A stretch of DNA of 59,486 nt from a virus: positions 1 through 59,486 of IMG/VR virus record IMGVR_UViG_3300027917_000004. The stretch is one strand, 5' to 3'. Positions within the stretch are counted from its first letter, which is position 1. The number at the start of each line of letters is the position of its first letter. Positions 3,298-44,547 of the stretch are shown here, piece after piece. The position numbers were made by a program, and so were the translations under genes. The notes under the pieces are model-generated. The model did no database searches and had not been told where the DNA came from. It saw nothing but the letters and a program-made list of their open reading frames with translations.

Positions 3298-3319
3298 CAT
3301 GTGAAAAGGGGGTCACATG
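3298..3319 (+). promoter_or_regulatory. Hairpin holding the start codon of the next gene
   Basis: Arms CATGTGA (3298-3304) and TCACATG (3313-3319) pair perfectly around an 8-nt loop that contains the ribosome binding site GGGGG. The ATG of the downstream gene (3317-3319) lies in the right arm, so initiation may depend on opening the stem. There is no T-tract, so it does not look like a terminator. Confidence 0.5.
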
Positions 3320-4903
3320 CCTACAAGTGATACGAGAGGAAAGGATCAAATCCTTTCTTTTGTCCGCAACCTTAAACATGACCGGATGCTAGACATCGGT
3401 TGTGGTGAAGGCACCTATGCCAAGCTTTTCCCAGAAGCGCATTGGACAGGCGTGGAAATTTGGGAGCCTTATGTTGATGAGTATAAACTCCGCGATCTCT
3501 ATTCTGAACTGCATCTTATGGATGCTCGCAACTGGGATAGTAACGGCCAGCGTTGGGATGTTGCTGTCGCTGGTGATATTCTTGAACATATGACGGAGCA
3601 GGAGGCTTTTCTTCTGGTCCAAAAACTACGCGATTGCGCTGATTGGGTCATCATCAGCATCCCGTTTAACATGCCGCAGGGAGAGTGGTATGGAAACCCC
3701 TATGAAGCCCATGTTAAAGATGACTGGACCCATGAAGAAGTTAAGCGGGTTTTTGGTGACGCAGAATGGTGCTTTATTGATTATCCCATCGGAGCTTATG
3801 CTTTTAAAGGAAAGTCAAAAGAGCGTCTTAAAATTTGCGTTTATGCAATCAGCAAAAACGAAGCCCATTTCGTTCCGCGCTTTTGCGAGTCAGCAAAAGA
3901 AGCAGACCTTATCCTAATTGCAGACACGGGGTCTACAGATGGGTTGCCAGCAGAAGCCGAAAAACATGGCGCAGTGGTTCACCACATTTCTATTACACCT
4001 TGGAGATTTGATCTTGCTAGGAACGCTGCTCTTGCTCTTGTTCCTAGGGATTTTGATGTCTGCATCAGTCTAGACATTGATGAAGTTCTTCAACCCGGCT
4101 GGCGCGAAGAAATCGAACGTGTCTGGATCAAGGGCCACACGACCCGTCTGCGCTATATGTTTGATTGGGGCTGCGGCATTCAATTCTTCTACGAGAAGAT
4201 CCACGCCAAGCATGGTTATATGTGGCACCACCCGTGCCATGAATATCCTGTTCATGATGGTCGGATCAAAGAAAATTGGGCACAGACTGATATGCTTTTG
4301 GCGGTCCATATGCCTGACCCGACAAAATCACGCGGTCAGTATTTGGACTTACTGAAGCTGTCAGTTGAGGAAGACCCAGAATGCCCTCGCAATGCTTTTT
4401 ATTATGCCCGTGAACTTAGTTTTCATGGGGATTGGTGGAAAGCTATTGAAGAGTGCCAACGGTATCTCGCTCTTCCCCGCGCCACATGGATGAACGAACG
4501 GTGCTATGCGTATCGTGTCATGGGGCGGTCTTGGAATGAGCTTGGTCGGTGGGAAGAAGCCGAAAAGGCATTTCAGATGGCAGCGTCAGAGGCACCTAAT
4601 ACCCGCGAACCATGGTGCGAACTGGCCCTTTTGATGTATCGCCAGAGCCGTTGGGAAGAGTCTTTCGCCTATGCCATGCGGGCCTTGCGGATTGCGAATC
4701 GTGAACAGGTCTATACCTGTGATCCAGCAGTTTGGGGTTCTCAACCCCATGATTTGGCTTCTGTTGCCGCATGGCATCTAGGGCTGAAAGATTTAGCTTT
4801 GGAGCAAGCTATGATAGCTTTGAGCCATGATCCTGATGACATTCGTTTACAGAATAATGTAAAATTCATGTCTGGCACAGAGCCTATTAAGGATGCGGCG
4901 TGA
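3317..4903 (+). CDS. Methyltransferase-glycosyltransferase-TPR fusion protein
   Basis: This 528-residue protein has three parts. Residues about 15-165 are a class I SAM-dependent methyltransferase (MLDIGCGEGTY as motif I, then VAGDILEHM). Residues about 170-330 are a GT-A-like family 2 glycosyltransferase (ADTGSTDG for nucleotide-sugar binding and the DxD-like SLDIDEVL). Residues about 340-520 are TPR-like helices (WNELGRWEEAEKAFQMAASEAPN). In bacteria such fusions build or decorate surface glycans. Here the gene sits between the adhesin and the lysis genes, so it may glycosylate virion fibres or alter the host envelope; that is inference. RBS GGGGG lies in the hairpin loop just upstream. Domain calls are good, substrate unknown. 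Confidence 0.85.
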   Translation: MPTSDTRGKDQILSFVRNLKHDRMLDIGCGEGTYAKLFPEAHWTGVEIWEPYVDEYKLRDLYSELHLMDARNWDSNGQRWDVAVAGDILEHMTEQEAFLLVQKLRDCADWVIISIPFNMPQGEWYGNPYEAHVKDDWTHEEVKRVFGDAEWCFIDYPIGAYAFKGKSKERLKICVYAISKNEAHFVPRFCESAKEADLILIADTGSTDGLPAEAEKHGAVVHHISITPWRFDLARNAALALVPRDFDVCISLDIDEVLQPGWREEIERVWIKGHTTRLRYMFDWGCGIQFFYEKIHAKHGYMWHHPCHEYPVHDGRIKENWAQTDMLLAVHMPDPTKSRGQYLDLLKLSVEEDPECPRNAFYYARELSFHGDWWKAIEECQRYLALPRATWMNERCYAYRVMGRSWNELGRWEEAEKAFQMAASEAPNTREPWCELALLMYRQSRWEESFAYAMRALRIANREQVYTCDPAVWGSQPHDLASVAAWHLGLKDLALEQAMIALSHDPDDIRLQNNVKFMSGTEPIKDAA

Positions 4904-21180: not shown

Positions 21181-21657
21181 TTAGGCCTTTTTTAAAATAA
21201 ATCTGGACGCATTGCTCTTCTCTCGCTTTTCAGCCGGATAGAGGCAAAGCTTGTGATGCTCTTCGCAGTAGCTCTGCTTCCAAGTAGGTTGGCCGCAAAA
21301 CCGATATTCTTTGGGGCTTATTTCCTTAATTGGATAGCGGCACATATCGATCCCAAGCTCCATAAGGCCATAGCCCATTAGCTTACGTTTCTCGGCCATT
21401 CGCTCACTAGCGATCCGTTTGATCTCTGCGGATTCTTCTTCTTTTGTTTTCTTTGGTGCGGTCTTTGCCCTTTTAAGGGCTTTTACGGATGGTTGAATTG
21501 GAACCTTATAGCCAACAAAGCCCTCCCTTCGCAGACGATGGATTCGACCCATAATTACGTTTCGCGTAACGCCAAAGTGGTTAGCTAATTCAGATGAGGT
21601 AGCCCCCTGATCCCACATCTTCAGCATGTCTTTGTCTTTATCGGTCAACGTAATCAT
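21181..21657 (-). CDS. GcrA-type cell cycle regulator homologue
   Basis: 158 residues with the two-part GcrA layout. Residues about 3-47 are a helix-turn-helix (DKDKDMLKMWDQGATSSELA, FGVTRNVIMGRIHRL), the DNA-binding domain that in Caulobacter GcrA reads GANTC sites methylated by CcrM. A Lys/Glu-rich linker follows, then MCRYPI ... YRFCGQPTWKQSYCEEHHKLC (about 106-142), equivalent to the C-terminal CRWPIGDP...FHFCG...YCxHH domain of GcrA that contacts sigma-70. Both parts are intact, so it could redirect host RNA polymerase to phage or host promoters. GcrA is essentially alphaproteobacterial, which supports the host assignment. Family call from motifs only. Confidence 0.85.
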   Translation of the reverse strand: MITLTDKDKDMLKMWDQGATSSELANHFGVTRNVIMGRIHRLRREGFVGYKVPIQPSVKALKRAKTAPKKTKEEESAEIKRIASERMAEKRKLMGYGLMELGIDMCRYPIKEISPKEYRFCGQPTWKQSYCEEHHKLCLYPAEKREKSNASRFILKKA

Positions 21658-26144: not shown

Positions 26145-26345
26145 ATGACAAAACCGGACCCCATACTCGCTAAGGTATTCGCCGCAGCGGGAAACCAATC
26201 CAAGCTCGCAGCAATGTTGGGTCTTACCCGCGCCGCTGTGTCTTGCTGGAAAAAGGTTCCTATTCGTCATGTAAGAGAAGTTTCCAAAATTACCAATATC
26301 CCGCGCCAGAAGTTACGCCCAGATGTCTTCGATGAAAACAACTAA
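26145..26345 (+). CDS. Cro/YdaS-like transcription regulator
   Basis: 66 residues. AGNQSKLAAMLGLTRAAVSCWKK is a helix-turn-helix, followed by VREVSKITNIPRQKLRPDVF, the end typical of the YdaS/Cro family (RHDLRPDIF in relatives). It has no Shine-Dalgarno and its ATG sits where the promoter should start transcription. It probably autoregulates through the palindrome that overlaps both -35 boxes just upstream. Confidence 0.85.
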   Translation: MTKPDPILAKVFAAAGNQSKLAAMLGLTRAAVSCWKKVPIRHVREVSKITNIPRQKLRPDVFDENN

Positions 26346-38585: not shown

Positions 38586-40361
38586 ATGCGCGTACTATCG
38601 ATTGATAATCAGAAGATTGATTACGAAAAGCAGCTGCTTGAATTGGATCGGGCTGACTGCGAGGAGAGCTTGTACGAGTTTTTGAAGAATTCGTGGAAGT
38701 ACATTGACAGTGTGCCGTTTACGGATGGATGGCCGATTGAAGCTGTAGCCGAACATCTTGAGGCTGTGGCGCGAGGTCAGATACGCCGTTTGATTATTAA
38801 CATTCCGCCTCGTTGCGCCAAGTCCTCGCTGACTTCTGTTGCGTTTCCGGCTTGGGTCTGGGCGCAGTCGCAGCGGGGCCCGACGATTGGACCGGGTACG
38901 CAATTCCTTCATGCCTCCTATGCCCAGCAGCTTTCTCTCAGAGACAGCGTGAAATGCCGCCGCCTGATTGAAAGCCCGTGGTATCGGAAGCTTTGGGGTG
39001 ACCGGTTTAGGTTAACGAGTGATCAGAACACAAAGTCGAGGTTTGATAATGACAAAGGCGGCTCAAGGCTCTCAACCTCCGTTGGCTCGGCCCTCACGGG
39101 TGAAGGCGGTCATATCATCGTGGTCGATGACCCGAATGCTGCACAGGAAGCCTTCTCGGAAGCCACCATTGCATCTACCATTGAGTGGTGGGATGCGGCT
39201 CTTTCCACCCGCTTGAATGATCCCAAGACTGGCGCGTTTGTTGTTATTCAGCAGAGGCTCAGTGAAGAGGATTTGACCGGCCACATTACGTCCAAAGACG
39301 AAGGCGAGTGGACGCATTTGTGTCTGCCGATGAAGTATGAGTGGCAGCGTCATTCTTATACAACTTTGGGCTATGACGAGAACGGTGATGAGATCGTCTG
39401 GAACGACCCGCGTGGGTGCGTCGAGGATGAAGACACGGGTGAATTAGTCCCGCTTGTTGAAGTGAATGATGACGGTGAACGCATTGCGATCTCGCCGGAA
39501 GCCCAAGAGGTTCTGGAGGAGGAGCGTGAAGGATCGCTGCTTTGGGAAGAGCGTTTCGGGATTGAGGAAGTCAATATTCTGGAGAAGCAACTTGGTCCTT
39601 GGGCCGCTGCGGGTCAGCTGCAACAAAGGCCGGAACCCAAGGGCGGTGGTATTATCAAGTCGGATTGGTGGCAAGTTTGGCAGGAACCGGAATATCCGCC
39701 AATGGATTATATCATTGCCTCTCTCGACACTGCCTACACTACTAAAACGGAAAACGACTTCTCTGCGATGACTGTTTGGGGCGTGTTTACCAAGTCTGCG
39801 ACAGCCCAGATCACCCGCTCTGTGGCGCGGCATGGTGGACTTATGTCCCATATCGAAGTGACCCGTGACTACGTTGATAAGCAAAGCCCGAAAGTCATGA
39901 TGATGTATGCATGGCAAGCAAGGCTTGAGCTTCATGAATTGGTCGAAAAGGTAGCCGAAAGTTGTAGGAAGATGAAAGTTGATAAGCTTATCATCGAAAA
40001 CAAAGCCGCTGGTTACTCTATTGCCCAAGAACTTCGTCGCCTTTACGGCCATGAAAACTTTGCCGTGCAGCTGGTTGACCCCAAAGGTCAGGACAAGCTT
40101 TCACGCCTGTATTCAGTCCAGCATTTGTTCGCAGAAGGTATGATCTTCGCGCCAGTCAGAGGCTGGGCCGATATGGTCATCCAACAGGTTGGTACCTTCC
40201 CCAAAGGCAAACACGACGACTTGGTCGATACTGTCTCGCAGTCGATCCGTCATTTGCGCGATCTGAACTTGCTGGTGAGGGCGCCGGAACTGATCCACGA
40301 TGTGGAAGACAGCATGGCATTCCGCTCACAAAAAGAGGATGTGCCTCTTTACCCGATCTGA
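38586..40361 (+). CDS. Terminase large subunit
   Basis: 591 residues. ATPase half: Walker A-like INIPPRCAKSSL (72-83), HASYAQQLSLRDSVKCRRLI, Walker B IIVVDDP with the following acidic residues (about 165-185), and a coupling segment VVIQQRLSEEDLTGHI. Nuclease half: SLDTAYTTKTENDFSAMTVWG (first Asp), LIIENKAAGYSIAQEL (middle Glu) and KGKHDDLVDTVSQSIRHL (final Asp), the RNase H-like layout of headful and cos terminases. Translocates DNA into the prohead and cuts it. Starts the long rightward late block. Confidence 0.95.
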   Translation: MRVLSIDNQKIDYEKQLLELDRADCEESLYEFLKNSWKYIDSVPFTDGWPIEAVAEHLEAVARGQIRRLIINIPPRCAKSSLTSVAFPAWVWAQSQRGPTIGPGTQFLHASYAQQLSLRDSVKCRRLIESPWYRKLWGDRFRLTSDQNTKSRFDNDKGGSRLSTSVGSALTGEGGHIIVVDDPNAAQEAFSEATIASTIEWWDAALSTRLNDPKTGAFVVIQQRLSEEDLTGHITSKDEGEWTHLCLPMKYEWQRHSYTTLGYDENGDEIVWNDPRGCVEDEDTGELVPLVEVNDDGERIAISPEAQEVLEEEREGSLLWEERFGIEEVNILEKQLGPWAAAGQLQQRPEPKGGGIIKSDWWQVWQEPEYPPMDYIIASLDTAYTTKTENDFSAMTVWGVFTKSATAQITRSVARHGGLMSHIEVTRDYVDKQSPKVMMMYAWQARLELHELVEKVAESCRKMKVDKLIIENKAAGYSIAQELRRLYGHENFAVQLVDPKGQDKLSRLYSVQHLFAEGMIFAPVRGWADMVIQQVGTFPKGKHDDLVDTVSQSIRHLRDLNLLVRAPELIHDVEDSMAFRSQKEDVPLYPI

Positions 40362-40387: not shown

Positions 40388-40464
40388 CCGGGTGTAGCGC
40401 AGTCTGGTAGCGTGGCTGATTTGGAGTCAGTAGGTCGCATGTTCGAATCATGCCACCCGGACCA
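40388..40464 (+). tRNA. tRNA-Pro (anticodon UGG)
   Basis: Full cloverleaf of 77 nt: acceptor CCGGGTG/CACCCGG, D-stem GCGC/GCGT, anticodon stem GCTGA/TCAGT with loop TTTGGAG (anticodon TGG), T-stem GCATG/CATGC with TTCGAAT, and an encoded CCA. It reads CCA and by wobble other Pro codons, which are very frequent in the phage's collagen-like GPT fibre. Confidence 0.93.
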
Positions 40465-40483
40465 CATCTCTGAGGGGGGATAC

Positions 40484-40840
40484 ATGGACAATTTAGATAA
40501 ACCGCTTGAGGAAATGGAACTTAGGCAACGGACAACGAACGCTCTTATCCAAGCCGGATATAAAACATTGCGCGATGTTGTGGTTGCTAAACAGTCTGAA
40601 ATTAAAAAAATACCCGGACTTGGCAGCAAATCATTTGACGAAATTAGAGAAGTGATAATGTTCTATGGTTATCACTTTGATATGCAAATTTTAAAATCAG
40701 CCAACCATTATCAGTCTTATGAAAAAGCCCTTCAAGAAATTGAAAGGCTGGAAAAACTTTTGGAACAACGCGACTCCTTCATCATTTACAACAATTTATG
40801 GGATGATTTTGTCGCATCACTAAAGGAGAAAGCACAATGA
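40484..40840 (+). CDS. RNA polymerase alpha-CTD-like protein with coiled coil
   Basis: 118 residues from ATG 40484 (GAGGGGGG upstream). Residues about 4-60 (KPLEEMELRQRTTNALIQAG, YKTLRDVVVAKQSEIKKI, PGLGSKSFDEIREVIMFYGY) match the C-terminal domain of bacterial RpoA: the LELxxRxxNxL helix and the (P)xLGxKSxxEI helix-hairpin. Positions that touch DNA in E. coli alpha (Arg265, Asn268, Gly296, Lys298, Ser299) are all kept; Cys269 is Ala. A coiled coil (YEKALQEIERLEKLLEQRDS) replaces the rest of alpha. It could bind UP elements or compete with host alpha-CTD at activators. Confidence 0.78.
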   Translation: MDNLDKPLEEMELRQRTTNALIQAGYKTLRDVVVAKQSEIKKIPGLGSKSFDEIREVIMFYGYHFDMQILKSANHYQSYEKALQEIERLEKLLEQRDSFIIYNNLWDDFVASLKEKAQ

Positions 40841-41367
40841 AAATTTTGCATTGGATCAAAACACAGCTGGATTATCGCAAAAAATATAAAGCGTCTCTCC
40901 AGCAGCGCCTATTTAATGAAAAAGAAGACCGTACAGCAGCCAAAAATGCTCTGGATATTTTGGCTAAATACGAAATTCTGACAGCAAGTCTTCCGGCAAA
41001 TCATGAGTTATCTACTCAGATTTATTGGAAAGAATATGCTGATCGCAATTTAATGCGGGAAAATGAAAATCTCCGCAGTCAATTTAATCACCTACAAAAA
41101 ACTTATTATGAACTGTCCAATAAATGGACGGATAATATTTTGCGCTACGGCGTCCAGATGTACGGCGAGTGGCAGCCTATGGAGATCGCGCCCAAAGATA
41201 ATTCAGCCATTTTGCTTTGCTATGAAAATGGCGATGGCCGCTGGGTCGGCAACGGTTTTTATGAGCAAGGCAAACAAAACGGCGGCGAATATGTTGGCTG
41301 GGTATGTGAAGGGGAGAATGACGTTACCCCGCTGTACTGGATGCCGTTGCCGGAGGGGCCGAAATGA
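40837..41367 (+). CDS. Coiled-coil protein with DUF551-like end
   Basis: 176 residues. The N-terminal ~100 are helical and charged; the C-terminal part EWQPMEIAPKDNSAILLCYE ... GWVCEGENDVTPLYWMPLPEGPK matches DUF551 (W.P...APKDG ... WMPLP..P). It overlaps the alpha-CTD-like gene by 4 nt. Two short DUF551-type genes follow directly. The function of DUF551 is unknown. Confidence 0.75.
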   Translation: MKILHWIKTQLDYRKKYKASLQQRLFNEKEDRTAAKNALDILAKYEILTASLPANHELSTQIYWKEYADRNLMRENENLRSQFNHLQKTYYELSNKWTDNILRYGVQMYGEWQPMEIAPKDNSAILLCYENGDGRWVGNGFYEQGKQNGGEYVGWVCEGENDVTPLYWMPLPEGPK

Positions 41368-41567: not shown

Positions 41568-41821
41568 AATGGGAGCCCATTGCTACCGCTCCAATGGATG
41601 GCACTTGGGTCCTGTTGACCGGGTTCAAACAGGGCAAGACCAAAACGATCAGCCACCTGTATGTGGTTGGCGCGTGGTATAACGTGAGCCAACGCTACCC
41701 CAACATGGGTGGAAATTGGTATGTTCTGGACCAAGACGGCAAGTTTGTCCTAAACCCGACCCACTGGGCCGATCTGCCTGATCTGCCCCCTAAACCTGTT
41801 CCCGTATCGTCTAACCGGTAG
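41564..41821 (+). CDS. DUF551-like small protein overlapping a tRNA gene
   Basis: 85 residues from ATG 41564: MKWEPIATAPMDGTWVLLTG ... PTHWADLPDLPPKP. Third DUF551-type unit; the canonical WMPLP has become WADLP. Its last eight codons, including the TAG stop, lie within the 5' end of the tRNA-Gln gene, so mRNA and tRNA compete for the same transcript segment. Confidence 0.8.
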   Translation: MKWEPIATAPMDGTWVLLTGFKQGKTKTISHLYVVGAWYNVSQRYPNMGGNWYVLDQDGKFVLNPTHWADLPDLPPKPVPVSSNR

Positions 41822-41874
41822 GACAACGCACTTTGACTGCGTCAATCGTGGTTCGAATCCATGTGCGGGAGCCA
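41800..41874 (+). tRNA. tRNA-Gln (anticodon UUG)
   Basis: 75-nt cloverleaf: acceptor TCCCGTA/TGCGGGA (one G-T), D-stem GTCT/GGAC, anticodon stem ACGCA/TGCGT with loop CTTTGAC (anticodon TTG), T-stem CGTGG/CCATG with TTCGAAT, discriminator G and encoded CCA. G at the discriminator is usual for tRNA-Gln. Its first 22 nt overlap the preceding coding sequence. Confidence 0.9.
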
Positions 41875-42213: not shown

Positions 42214-44547
42214 ATGCCTTTAACGCCCGGCCTTGTCCCTAACATCCGCGAGCTTGGCTCCGATCCCGCAGCCATGCCGTCTGAGGACGATATCGTCATT
42301 GAGATGGTAGAGGACCAAGACGCGCCGGAGATCGATGAAAAAGGCAATGTCATCAAGATCGAACACGCAGACGGTTCGATTACGATTTCGCTGGATGGTC
42401 GCCCCGTCGAAGAAAATATCAAAGAGAAGGATATGGCGGATTGGTTCCGCAACCTTGTCGAAGATATCGATGACATGGAACTTTCCAGCATTGCCAGCGA
42501 CTTGATCCGTGGCATTGATGATGACATTTCATCGCGCCGCGAGTGGATCGAAGACCGCGCACAAGGCTTGAAGCTTCTTGGCCTTAAGGTTGAAATTCCC
42601 GGCCTCCAAGGCGCTACAGATGGCGCGCCAGTTGAAGGCATGTCCAAGGTCCGCCACCCGCTTCTTCTCGAAGCCGTGTTGCGCTTCCAAGCCAATGCCC
42701 GTTCAGAACTTCTCCCGACAGATGGTCCAGTCAAAGTTCGCAATGACAACAACAATGCGAACCTTAAAGATGACCAGCTTGGTAATGCGCTTGAGAGCGA
42801 TCTCAATCATTACCTGACAGCAGTTGCCAAAGAATATTATCCAGACACAGATCGTATGCTTCTGATGTTGGGTTTTGGCGGCACAGCTTTCAAGAAAGTT
42901 TACTTCTGCCCGCTGCGTAACCGTCCTGTCTCTGAGACAGTTGATGCAGACGATTTGATCGTCAATAACGCAGCCACAGACCTTTCAAATGCCAAACGCG
43001 TTACGCAGCGCATTTACATGCGGCCTTCAACGGTCAAGCGTATGCAAATTCTTGGCGCGTATCGTGACATTGATTTGTCTACGCCAAATGAACCTGACTA
43101 CGATGAGGTTCAAAAAGCTGAACGCGCACAGCAAGGCATTAACGATGGATCGATGAACCCGGAAGACCGGGATCGTGAGATTTACGAATGCTATTGCGAA
43201 CTTAATCTGCGCGGCTTTGAGCATAAGCACAAAGGCAAAGAAAGCGGTTTGGAAATTCCGTACCGCGTAACGATTGACGTTTCTTCCAAGCAAATCCTGT
43301 CAATTGTCCGTAACTATGACGAAGACACCGCAGAGCTTCCAGAAGCTCGCCAGAACTTCGTCAAGTACACTTTTGTTCCGGGCTTTGGTTTCTACGACAT
43401 CGGCCTCCTGCATATCCTTGGCAACACGACCAATGCAGTGACTGCTGCATGGCGCGAAATGCTTGATGCGGGCATGTACGCAAACTTCCCCGGCTTCCTT
43501 ATGGCCGACAGCGGTGCGCGTCAGAACACCAACATTTTCCGTGTTCCTCCGGGCGGCATGGCTCTTGTGAAAACAGGCGGTATGCCGATCAACCAAGCCA
43601 TCATGCCGTTGCCGTATAAAGAACCCGGCGCTGCTTTGATGAACCTTGTCGATAACATGGCTCAGACAGGTATGCGCGTTGGCGGCACAGCTGAAATGGC
43701 TGTTGGCGAAGGCCGCGCTGATGCACCTGTCGGCACAACCATTGCGCTGATTGAGCAAGCTAAAGTTGTCATGAGTTCGGTGCATAAGCGCCTTCATGCT
43801 TCACAGGCTGAAGAGTTCCAGTTGCTGCGCCGTACGTTCGAAGAACATCCAGACAGCTTCTGGCAGCGTAATCGGGCTACTGCATTCCCGTGGGATGAAA
43901 AAACATTTACGGATGCATTGAAGAACTTTTTGCTGGTCCCACAAGCTGACCCGAATACAGCTTCCAGCATCCAGCGCATGATGAAGGTCGTTGCTCTCAA
44001 GCAATTGGCTGCACAAAACCCTGCGCTGTATGATCCGATTGCGGTTGATATTGCCGCTCTTCAAGCGATGGGTTGGAACAACCCGCAGCAGTTTATGGCT
44101 CCGCCTTCCGCTCAAGGAAAGCCGCCGCCGGAACTGTTGGAGAAGATGGCAAACATCCAAGCCAAGCAAAAAGAAGCAGATGCCCGCATGTTGGATTCGC
44201 AGACCCGCGCTGCCGAATCACAGGCGCGTTTGCAGCTGGATCAGCAAAAGCTTCAGATGGAAATGGGCGGTGGCCTCAACGGTGGCATAGACCCCGAAAA
44301 GGCTATGCAGTTCCAAATCCAACAGGCAGAAATCCAACAGCGCCAACAAGATACAATGTTGGACGCTATTAACCGCAAACGCGACCGCGAATCACGCGAG
44401 CGTTTGGCTGCCATCAAACTGGCTGAAGAAGCCGCCCGTAACCCGCAAGGTTTGGGTATCATCCAAAGCATCGTAACCCCTGACATGCTGGCTCGCCTTG
44501 AGGGTAATGAGCCGGGTCTTGATGGACAGCAGACCGGAGAACTCTAA
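42214..44547 (+). CDS. Portal protein
   Basis: 777 residues, a length typical of P22/N4-like and environmental podovirus portals. Features: acidic N-terminus, HPLLLEAVLRFQANARSELL, MLLMLGFGGTAFKKVYFCPL, FVPGFGFYDIGLLHILGNTT, and PVGTTIALIEQAKVVMSSVHKRLH (residues about 508-531), a segment conserved in this portal group. The last ~120 residues are a Gln-rich coiled coil (QQAEIQQRQQDTML). It forms the dodecameric DNA gate at one capsid vertex. Overlaps the next gene by 1 nt. Confidence 0.9.
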   Translation: MPLTPGLVPNIRELGSDPAAMPSEDDIVIEMVEDQDAPEIDEKGNVIKIEHADGSITISLDGRPVEENIKEKDMADWFRNLVEDIDDMELSSIASDLIRGIDDDISSRREWIEDRAQGLKLLGLKVEIPGLQGATDGAPVEGMSKVRHPLLLEAVLRFQANARSELLPTDGPVKVRNDNNNANLKDDQLGNALESDLNHYLTAVAKEYYPDTDRMLLMLGFGGTAFKKVYFCPLRNRPVSETVDADDLIVNNAATDLSNAKRVTQRIYMRPSTVKRMQILGAYRDIDLSTPNEPDYDEVQKAERAQQGINDGSMNPEDRDREIYECYCELNLRGFEHKHKGKESGLEIPYRVTIDVSSKQILSIVRNYDEDTAELPEARQNFVKYTFVPGFGFYDIGLLHILGNTTNAVTAAWREMLDAGMYANFPGFLMADSGARQNTNIFRVPPGGMALVKTGGMPINQAIMPLPYKEPGAALMNLVDNMAQTGMRVGGTAEMAVGEGRADAPVGTTIALIEQAKVVMSSVHKRLHASQAEEFQLLRRTFEEHPDSFWQRNRATAFPWDEKTFTDALKNFLLVPQADPNTASSIQRMMKVVALKQLAAQNPALYDPIAVDIAALQAMGWNNPQQFMAPPSAQGKPPPELLEKMANIQAKQKEADARMLDSQTRAAESQARLQLDQQKLQMEMGGGLNGGIDPEKAMQFQIQQAEIQQRQQDTMLDAINRKRDRESRERLAAIKLAEEAARNPQGLGIIQSIVTPDMLARLEGNEPGLDGQQTGEL

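Follow-up and report, generated by a model that had tools for sequence, protein, structure and literature searches.

The strongest bacterial promoters are driven by the C-terminal domain of the RNA polymerase alpha subunit (alpha-CTD), which several phages cleave, modify or displace. The virus record IMGVR_UViG_3300027917_000004 raises the question of whether a phage may also carry its own copy of this domain, and what such a copy would do. The whole record (59,486 nucleotides) is referred to here as the window; its structural genes include those for a terminase large subunit (TerL), a portal protein, a major head protein and a DNA-ejection-type protein. The gene in question lies between TerL and the portal gene, and its product was described in a first-pass annotation, made from the sequence alone, as a mimic of the alpha-CTD. 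Features of the window are listed in Table 1.

The ATG at 40484 was taken as the likely start because the longer reading frame from the GTG at 40412 would begin within the tRNA-Pro gene. A Shine-Dalgarno-like GAGGGGGG is located a few bases 5' of this ATG, and the protein begins MDNLDKPLEEMELRQRTTNALIQAGYKTLRDVVVAKQSEIKKIPGLGSKSFDEIREVIMFYGYHFDMQILK before continuing into a long helix. Promoter-like sites occurred at chance level, and promoter and terminator scans performed no better than shuffles.

Table 1 Features of the window discussed in the text; residue numbers refer to the product of 40484..40840
Feature	Position	Strand	Basis
Methyltransferase domain fused to family 2 glycosyltransferase with TPR-like repeats	3317-4903	+	
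GcrA cell-cycle regulator family protein	21181-21657	-	PF07750, 3.5e-20
YdaS/Cro-like small DNA-binding protein	26145-26345	+	PF15943, 6.6e-12
Terminase large subunit (TerL), backbone	38586..40361	+	PHROG 38, 8.1e-85
tRNA-Pro(tgg), left edge of cargo block	40388..40464	+	ARAGORN
Free-standing alpha-CTD and helical rod gene	40484..40840	+	ATG to TGA, 118 aa
Alpha-CTD core	residues 2-57		PF03118 match
End of alpha-CTD and linker	residues 58-71		
Long C-terminal helix, 46 residues (predicted)	residues 72-117		AlphaFold model
176 aa protein, N-terminal part probably helical, DUF551-like tail	40837..41367	+	ORF list
DUF551 protein, 67 aa	41364..41567	+	PF04448, 1.2e-6, above cut-off
DUF551-like protein, 85 aa	41564..41821	+	PF04448, 0.032, under cut-off
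tRNA-Gln(ttg), right edge of cargo block	41800..41874	+	ARAGORN
Portal protein, backbone, downstream	42214..44547	+	PHROG 1216, 2.6e-28

The core of the protein matched the Pfam family RNA_pol_A_CTD with an E-value of 3.3e-14 (52.8 bits against a curated cut-off of 23.8), and every phmmer match in the PDB down to E 0.05 was an RpoA chain. An AlphaFold2 model, built for the monomer from an 11-row alignment, had a pLDDT of 94-96 over residues 11-60 (86.7 overall). Using Foldseek, the best PDB match to this model was the Caulobacter RpoA-CTD on AT-rich DNA (9zum, E 3e-6), which superposed at 1.1 Å over 71 columns with a TM-score of 0.85 by target length. RpoA or RNA polymerase entries made up 50 of the 50 best matches, among them structures on AT-rich or UP DNA (9zum, 3n97). 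By homology and predicted fold, the product of this gene is a true alpha-CTD, as the annotation had read its first ~60 residues. A fold prediction returning only a generic helix-hairpin-helix (HhH), named there as the refuting case, was not obtained. The corresponding explanation, a DNA-repair-type HhH protein with a chance resemblance to RpoA, can point to a match to HHH_5 (E 7e-5), but this match fell under the family's own cut-off (23.6 versus 27), as did that to HHH (15 versus 24). RNA_pol_A_CTD outscored HHH_5 by about 29 bits and, with sequence and fold searches both returning RpoA, chance resemblance was rejected as scarcely credible.

The alpha N-terminal assembly domain is absent, rpoA models matching the 118-aa protein in its CTD region only and far under their cut-offs, so this protein, unlike RpoA, cannot join the polymerase as alpha. 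The predicted C-terminal helix follows the domain instead, in keeping with the coil that had been proposed to stand in for the alpha N-domain. Neither an Ea22 nor a DUF551 domain was found by Pfam in the alpha-CTD protein itself; DUF551 was confined to neighbouring genes.

In order to compare individual positions, the protein was set against the E. coli alpha-CTD in an ungapped register (residue n corresponds to RpoA n+249). Retained residues were R16 (R265), N19 (N268), G47 (G296), K49 (K298), S50 (S299) and E53 (E302), positions that form the DNA-binding face of the E. coli domain, and the Arg, Asn, Gly, Lys and Ser singled out earlier are all among them. Positions 259 and 261 are acidic, as in RpoA-CTD, both being Glu (E10 and E12). 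In contrast to RpoA-CTD, C269 is replaced by Ala, positions 285-287 read Lys-Gln-Ser, positions 315-318 are changed, and a long C-terminal helix is added. The altered face at 285-289, within which E288 is kept, is the activator-contact face in E. coli.

R265, which lay outside all search patterns, was present in every free-standing phage alpha-CTD collected (candidates were confirmed by similarity to the window protein), despite their differing partner segments. N268 was usual but not universal, being replaced by A, Y, Q or R in some of these proteins, and the 261 and 287 faces varied freely, with 259/261 not conserved. Because the patterns used for searching had partly picked out G296, K298, S299 and E302, which are also typical of HhH hairpins in general, only R265 and N268 count as independent evidence. 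Because R265 is constant while the 261 and 287 faces vary, the aligned sequences favour DNA binding over activator contact as the likeliest common function of these domains.

The gene starts 123 bases downstream of the end of TerL (40361) within a cargo block that runs tRNA-Pro, alpha-CTD gene, three genes with DUF551-type tails, tRNA-Gln. The first of these three genes overlaps the alpha-CTD stop by 4 bases, and its tail is 42% identical to the DUF551 ORF, with no Pfam match above the cut-off; the product of the last resembles the tail of an alpha-CTD protein from another contig (L030, below). This last gene also shares 22 bases with the tRNA-Gln gene. The GC content of the alpha-CTD gene is 37%, versus 52% for TerL and portal.

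Two IMG/VR contigs (L002 and L003) encode a protein 91% identical to that of the window. Their DNA is 88% identical to positions 40483-40803, the identity ending at or near the gene ends and the flanks being unshared, whereas identity to the window drops to 69-70% in the neighbouring TerL and portal genes. In both contigs the alpha-CTD gene flanks TerL on its opposite side and is inverted relative to it, and a small pre-portal gene directly follows TerL where the window has ~1.6 kb of cargo. The window and L003 copies differ at 11 first, 3 second and 38 third codon positions; dN is about 0.05 and dS 0.6-1.0 (dN/dS about 0.05-0.09). Given this distribution of differences, the low dN/dS, and an identity bounded by the gene without shared flanks, the alpha-CTD gene is a functional protein gene that is under purifying selection and moves as a unit. 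Its position beside the terminase, to which the first-pass annotation had drawn attention, is correct for the window but carries no meaningful link, as shown by the two nearest relatives; a role in packaging via the terminase was rejected because the gene changes both flank and strand with respect to TerL. Among other phages, L028 and L032 have terminase genes near the alpha-CTD gene and L030 and L026 have them farther away, too few cases to mean anything.

Scanning viral contigs with degenerate patterns and profiles recovered about 20 distinct alpha-CTD proteins without an alpha N-terminal domain. Most are 110-190 aa long, with a single alpha-CTD and a helical-looking segment before or after it; across the set the partner segment may be helical (N- or C-terminal), sigma region 4-like, DUF551-like or annotated as a pyrophosphatase. 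Several phage proteins of 110-135 aa in BFVD are already named 'RNA polymerase, alpha subunit, C-terminal', and free-standing proteins like that of the window include A0A6J5NZM6 (uncultured Caudovirales), A0A5Q2WLP1 (Mycobacterium phage Mithril) and A0A2P1JY10 (Rhodococcus phage Finch), alongside IMG/VR loci among L014-L055. The window gene is thus a further member of a kind already named in databases. The view that no phage regulator of this design had been described does not hold for the proteins as such, which are common in phages; it does hold for their function, as no functional study of phage-encoded alpha-CTD proteins was found in the literature searched.

The partner segments differ between proteins. 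In the product of L018:1386-2237, an alpha-CTD is joined to sigma-70 region 4, each scoring over its Pfam cut-off, which makes this protein a possible chimeric promoter-recognition factor; the same contig also encodes a major head protein. A sigma-4-like segment was matched weakly in the alpha-CTD protein of L032. In L030:1072-1671 (minus strand) the alpha-CTD is fused to a DUF551-like tail, identified by pairwise similarity only (the DUF551 profile gave no score), so that modules encoded by adjacent genes in the window occur there in one protein. L022:3932-4798, gp23 of vB_RpoS-V16, a named phage of Ruegeria pomeroyi, is annotated as a pyrophosphatase and matches the alpha-CTD (1.2e-10) close to its N-terminus. 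Over a domain of about 58 aa, compared at 24-45% identity, the window protein was 24-40% identical to other phage alpha-CTDs and about 30-38% to RpoA-CTDs; being no nearer to those phage domains than to RpoA (33-38%), it fits either several captures or a very old split.

Some apparent relatives were removed. An INPHARED tblastn match, MT839537, proved to be a bacterial rpoA end with a ribosomal L17-like gene after it, and this record, CAKLQH020000003 and OR851339, all filed as phages, were set aside as bacterial or host DNA carrying bacterial rpoA. Phage-filed records of this type are a trap for alpha-CTD domain searches. A scan of bacterial genomes returned two Nitrospirae contigs only, and the one checked (L008) was rpoA.

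Comparable proteins from better known systems share some of these properties. P1-type PmgS-like proteins (phrog_1660) also contain an alpha-CTD (residues 351-404 of a Pantoea phage-plasmid protein, 1.4e-7), but they are about 430 aa long, carry the domain near the C-terminus and are assigned to 'head morphogenesis' by PHROG. Lambda Ea22 consists of an N-segment, a coiled coil and a variable C-domain and is pro-lysogenic, and DUF551 is described as a portable domain that occurs in transcription factors and in one of the Ea22 variants (PMC10834534). The window protein resembles Ea22/DUF551 proteins as a putative coil-based accessory phage regulator with DUF551-type neighbours, and differs in lacking a match to either domain. 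Host alpha-CTD function, the proposed target of the window protein, is also acted upon by Rac of LUZ19 (cleavage), T4 Alt/ModA (ADP-ribosylation), G1 Gp67 and P2 Ogr; these proteins modify, cleave, displace or bind the alpha-CTD, and none is described as a copy of it (PMC7552054).

We propose, with a probability of roughly 0.4, that the window protein is a DNA binder, oligomerised through its coil, that occupies AT-rich sites of UP type and there competes with, or substitutes for, the host alpha-CTD. Untethered from the polymerase, the domain would bind AT-rich UP-type promoter sites through its retained minor-groove surface, and the C-terminal helix would probably join copies into a dimer or higher oligomer. 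The most likely effect would be competition with the host alpha-CTD at strong UP-element or activator-dependent promoters, above all those of rRNA, lowering host transcription while the phage uses the host polymerase; the acidic residues at 259/261 would leave room for contact with sigma region 4 and thereby for help to selected phage promoters. This proposal draws on the PF03118 match and RpoA-CTD fold, a DNA face kept alongside an altered 285-289 face, the invariant R265, maintenance of the gene by selection and, by analogy, the precedent of phages attacking the alpha-CTD by other means. The window proteins scanned (part of the window ORFs) included no phage RNA polymerase, so the host enzyme is probably used. 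Against competition, the gene lies in the late-gene direction, a timing not obviously right for host shut-off, part of its DNA face (G296, K298, S299, E302) is shared with the HhH hairpin, and the helix was modelled as a monomer only.

The same DNA binding could serve activation. As a phage-specific activator, the protein would occupy AT-rich sites upstream of phage promoters and dock on sigma region 4 via 259/261, as a trans-acting UP-element factor to the advantage of phage genes. E10 and E12 preserve both acidic positions, the L018 and L032 fusions indicate that the domain is used in promoter-recognition proteins, and the GcrA-like regulator of this phage suggests that holoenzyme-binding activators may be in its repertoire. 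This activator role is nevertheless unlikely, given that other phage alpha-CTDs do not conserve 259/261 and that no set of phage promoters with AT-rich upstream sites was identified. It is slightly less likely again that the protein is a DNA-binding adaptor without a direct promoter role, working in an accessory DUF551/Ea22-like regulatory or superinfection cassette. The overlap of the alpha-CTD stop with the first of three DUF551-type genes, the direct fusion in L030 and the architecture of Ea22 would all suit an adaptor, but that fusion is the single case found, and in L002 and L003 the alpha-CTD gene is uncoupled from DUF551, the nearest DUF551-like ORF being on the other strand. A decoy that sequesters alpha-CTD binders (activators or the C-terminal repeats of NusA) rather than binding DNA would be in line with the preserved overall fold and the kept E288; it appears more doubtful still, as positions 285-287 and 315-318, where activators make contact, are altered or lack conservation, whereas the DNA-contact Arg never varies.

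A phage alpha-CTD copy under purifying selection suggests that competition by a free domain may be a further route, and about 20 distinct proteins from one collection, some with sigma-region-4-like or DUF551-like partners, suggest that a group of regulators has been overlooked and that this is not a one-phage curiosity. As a tentative generalisation, which we consider somewhat less probable than the proposal for the window protein, phages may have repeatedly captured the alpha-CTD as an interchangeable promoter-targeting module, left untethered, multimerised by helices or joined to sigma-4-like or DUF551-like modules, that reprograms the host polymerase by competing with or replacing its alpha-CTD. 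If so, captured alpha-CTD modules would form a class of phage transcription regulators that has yet to be described by experiment.

GcrA being a regulator of Alphaproteobacteria, the GcrA-family protein of the window points to an alphaproteobacterial host; it may be a second phage regulator acting on the host holoenzyme. Elsewhere in the window, a family 2 glycosyltransferase with TPR-like repeats carries a fused methyltransferase domain, and the YdaS/Cro-like protein hints at a temperate or formerly temperate phage.
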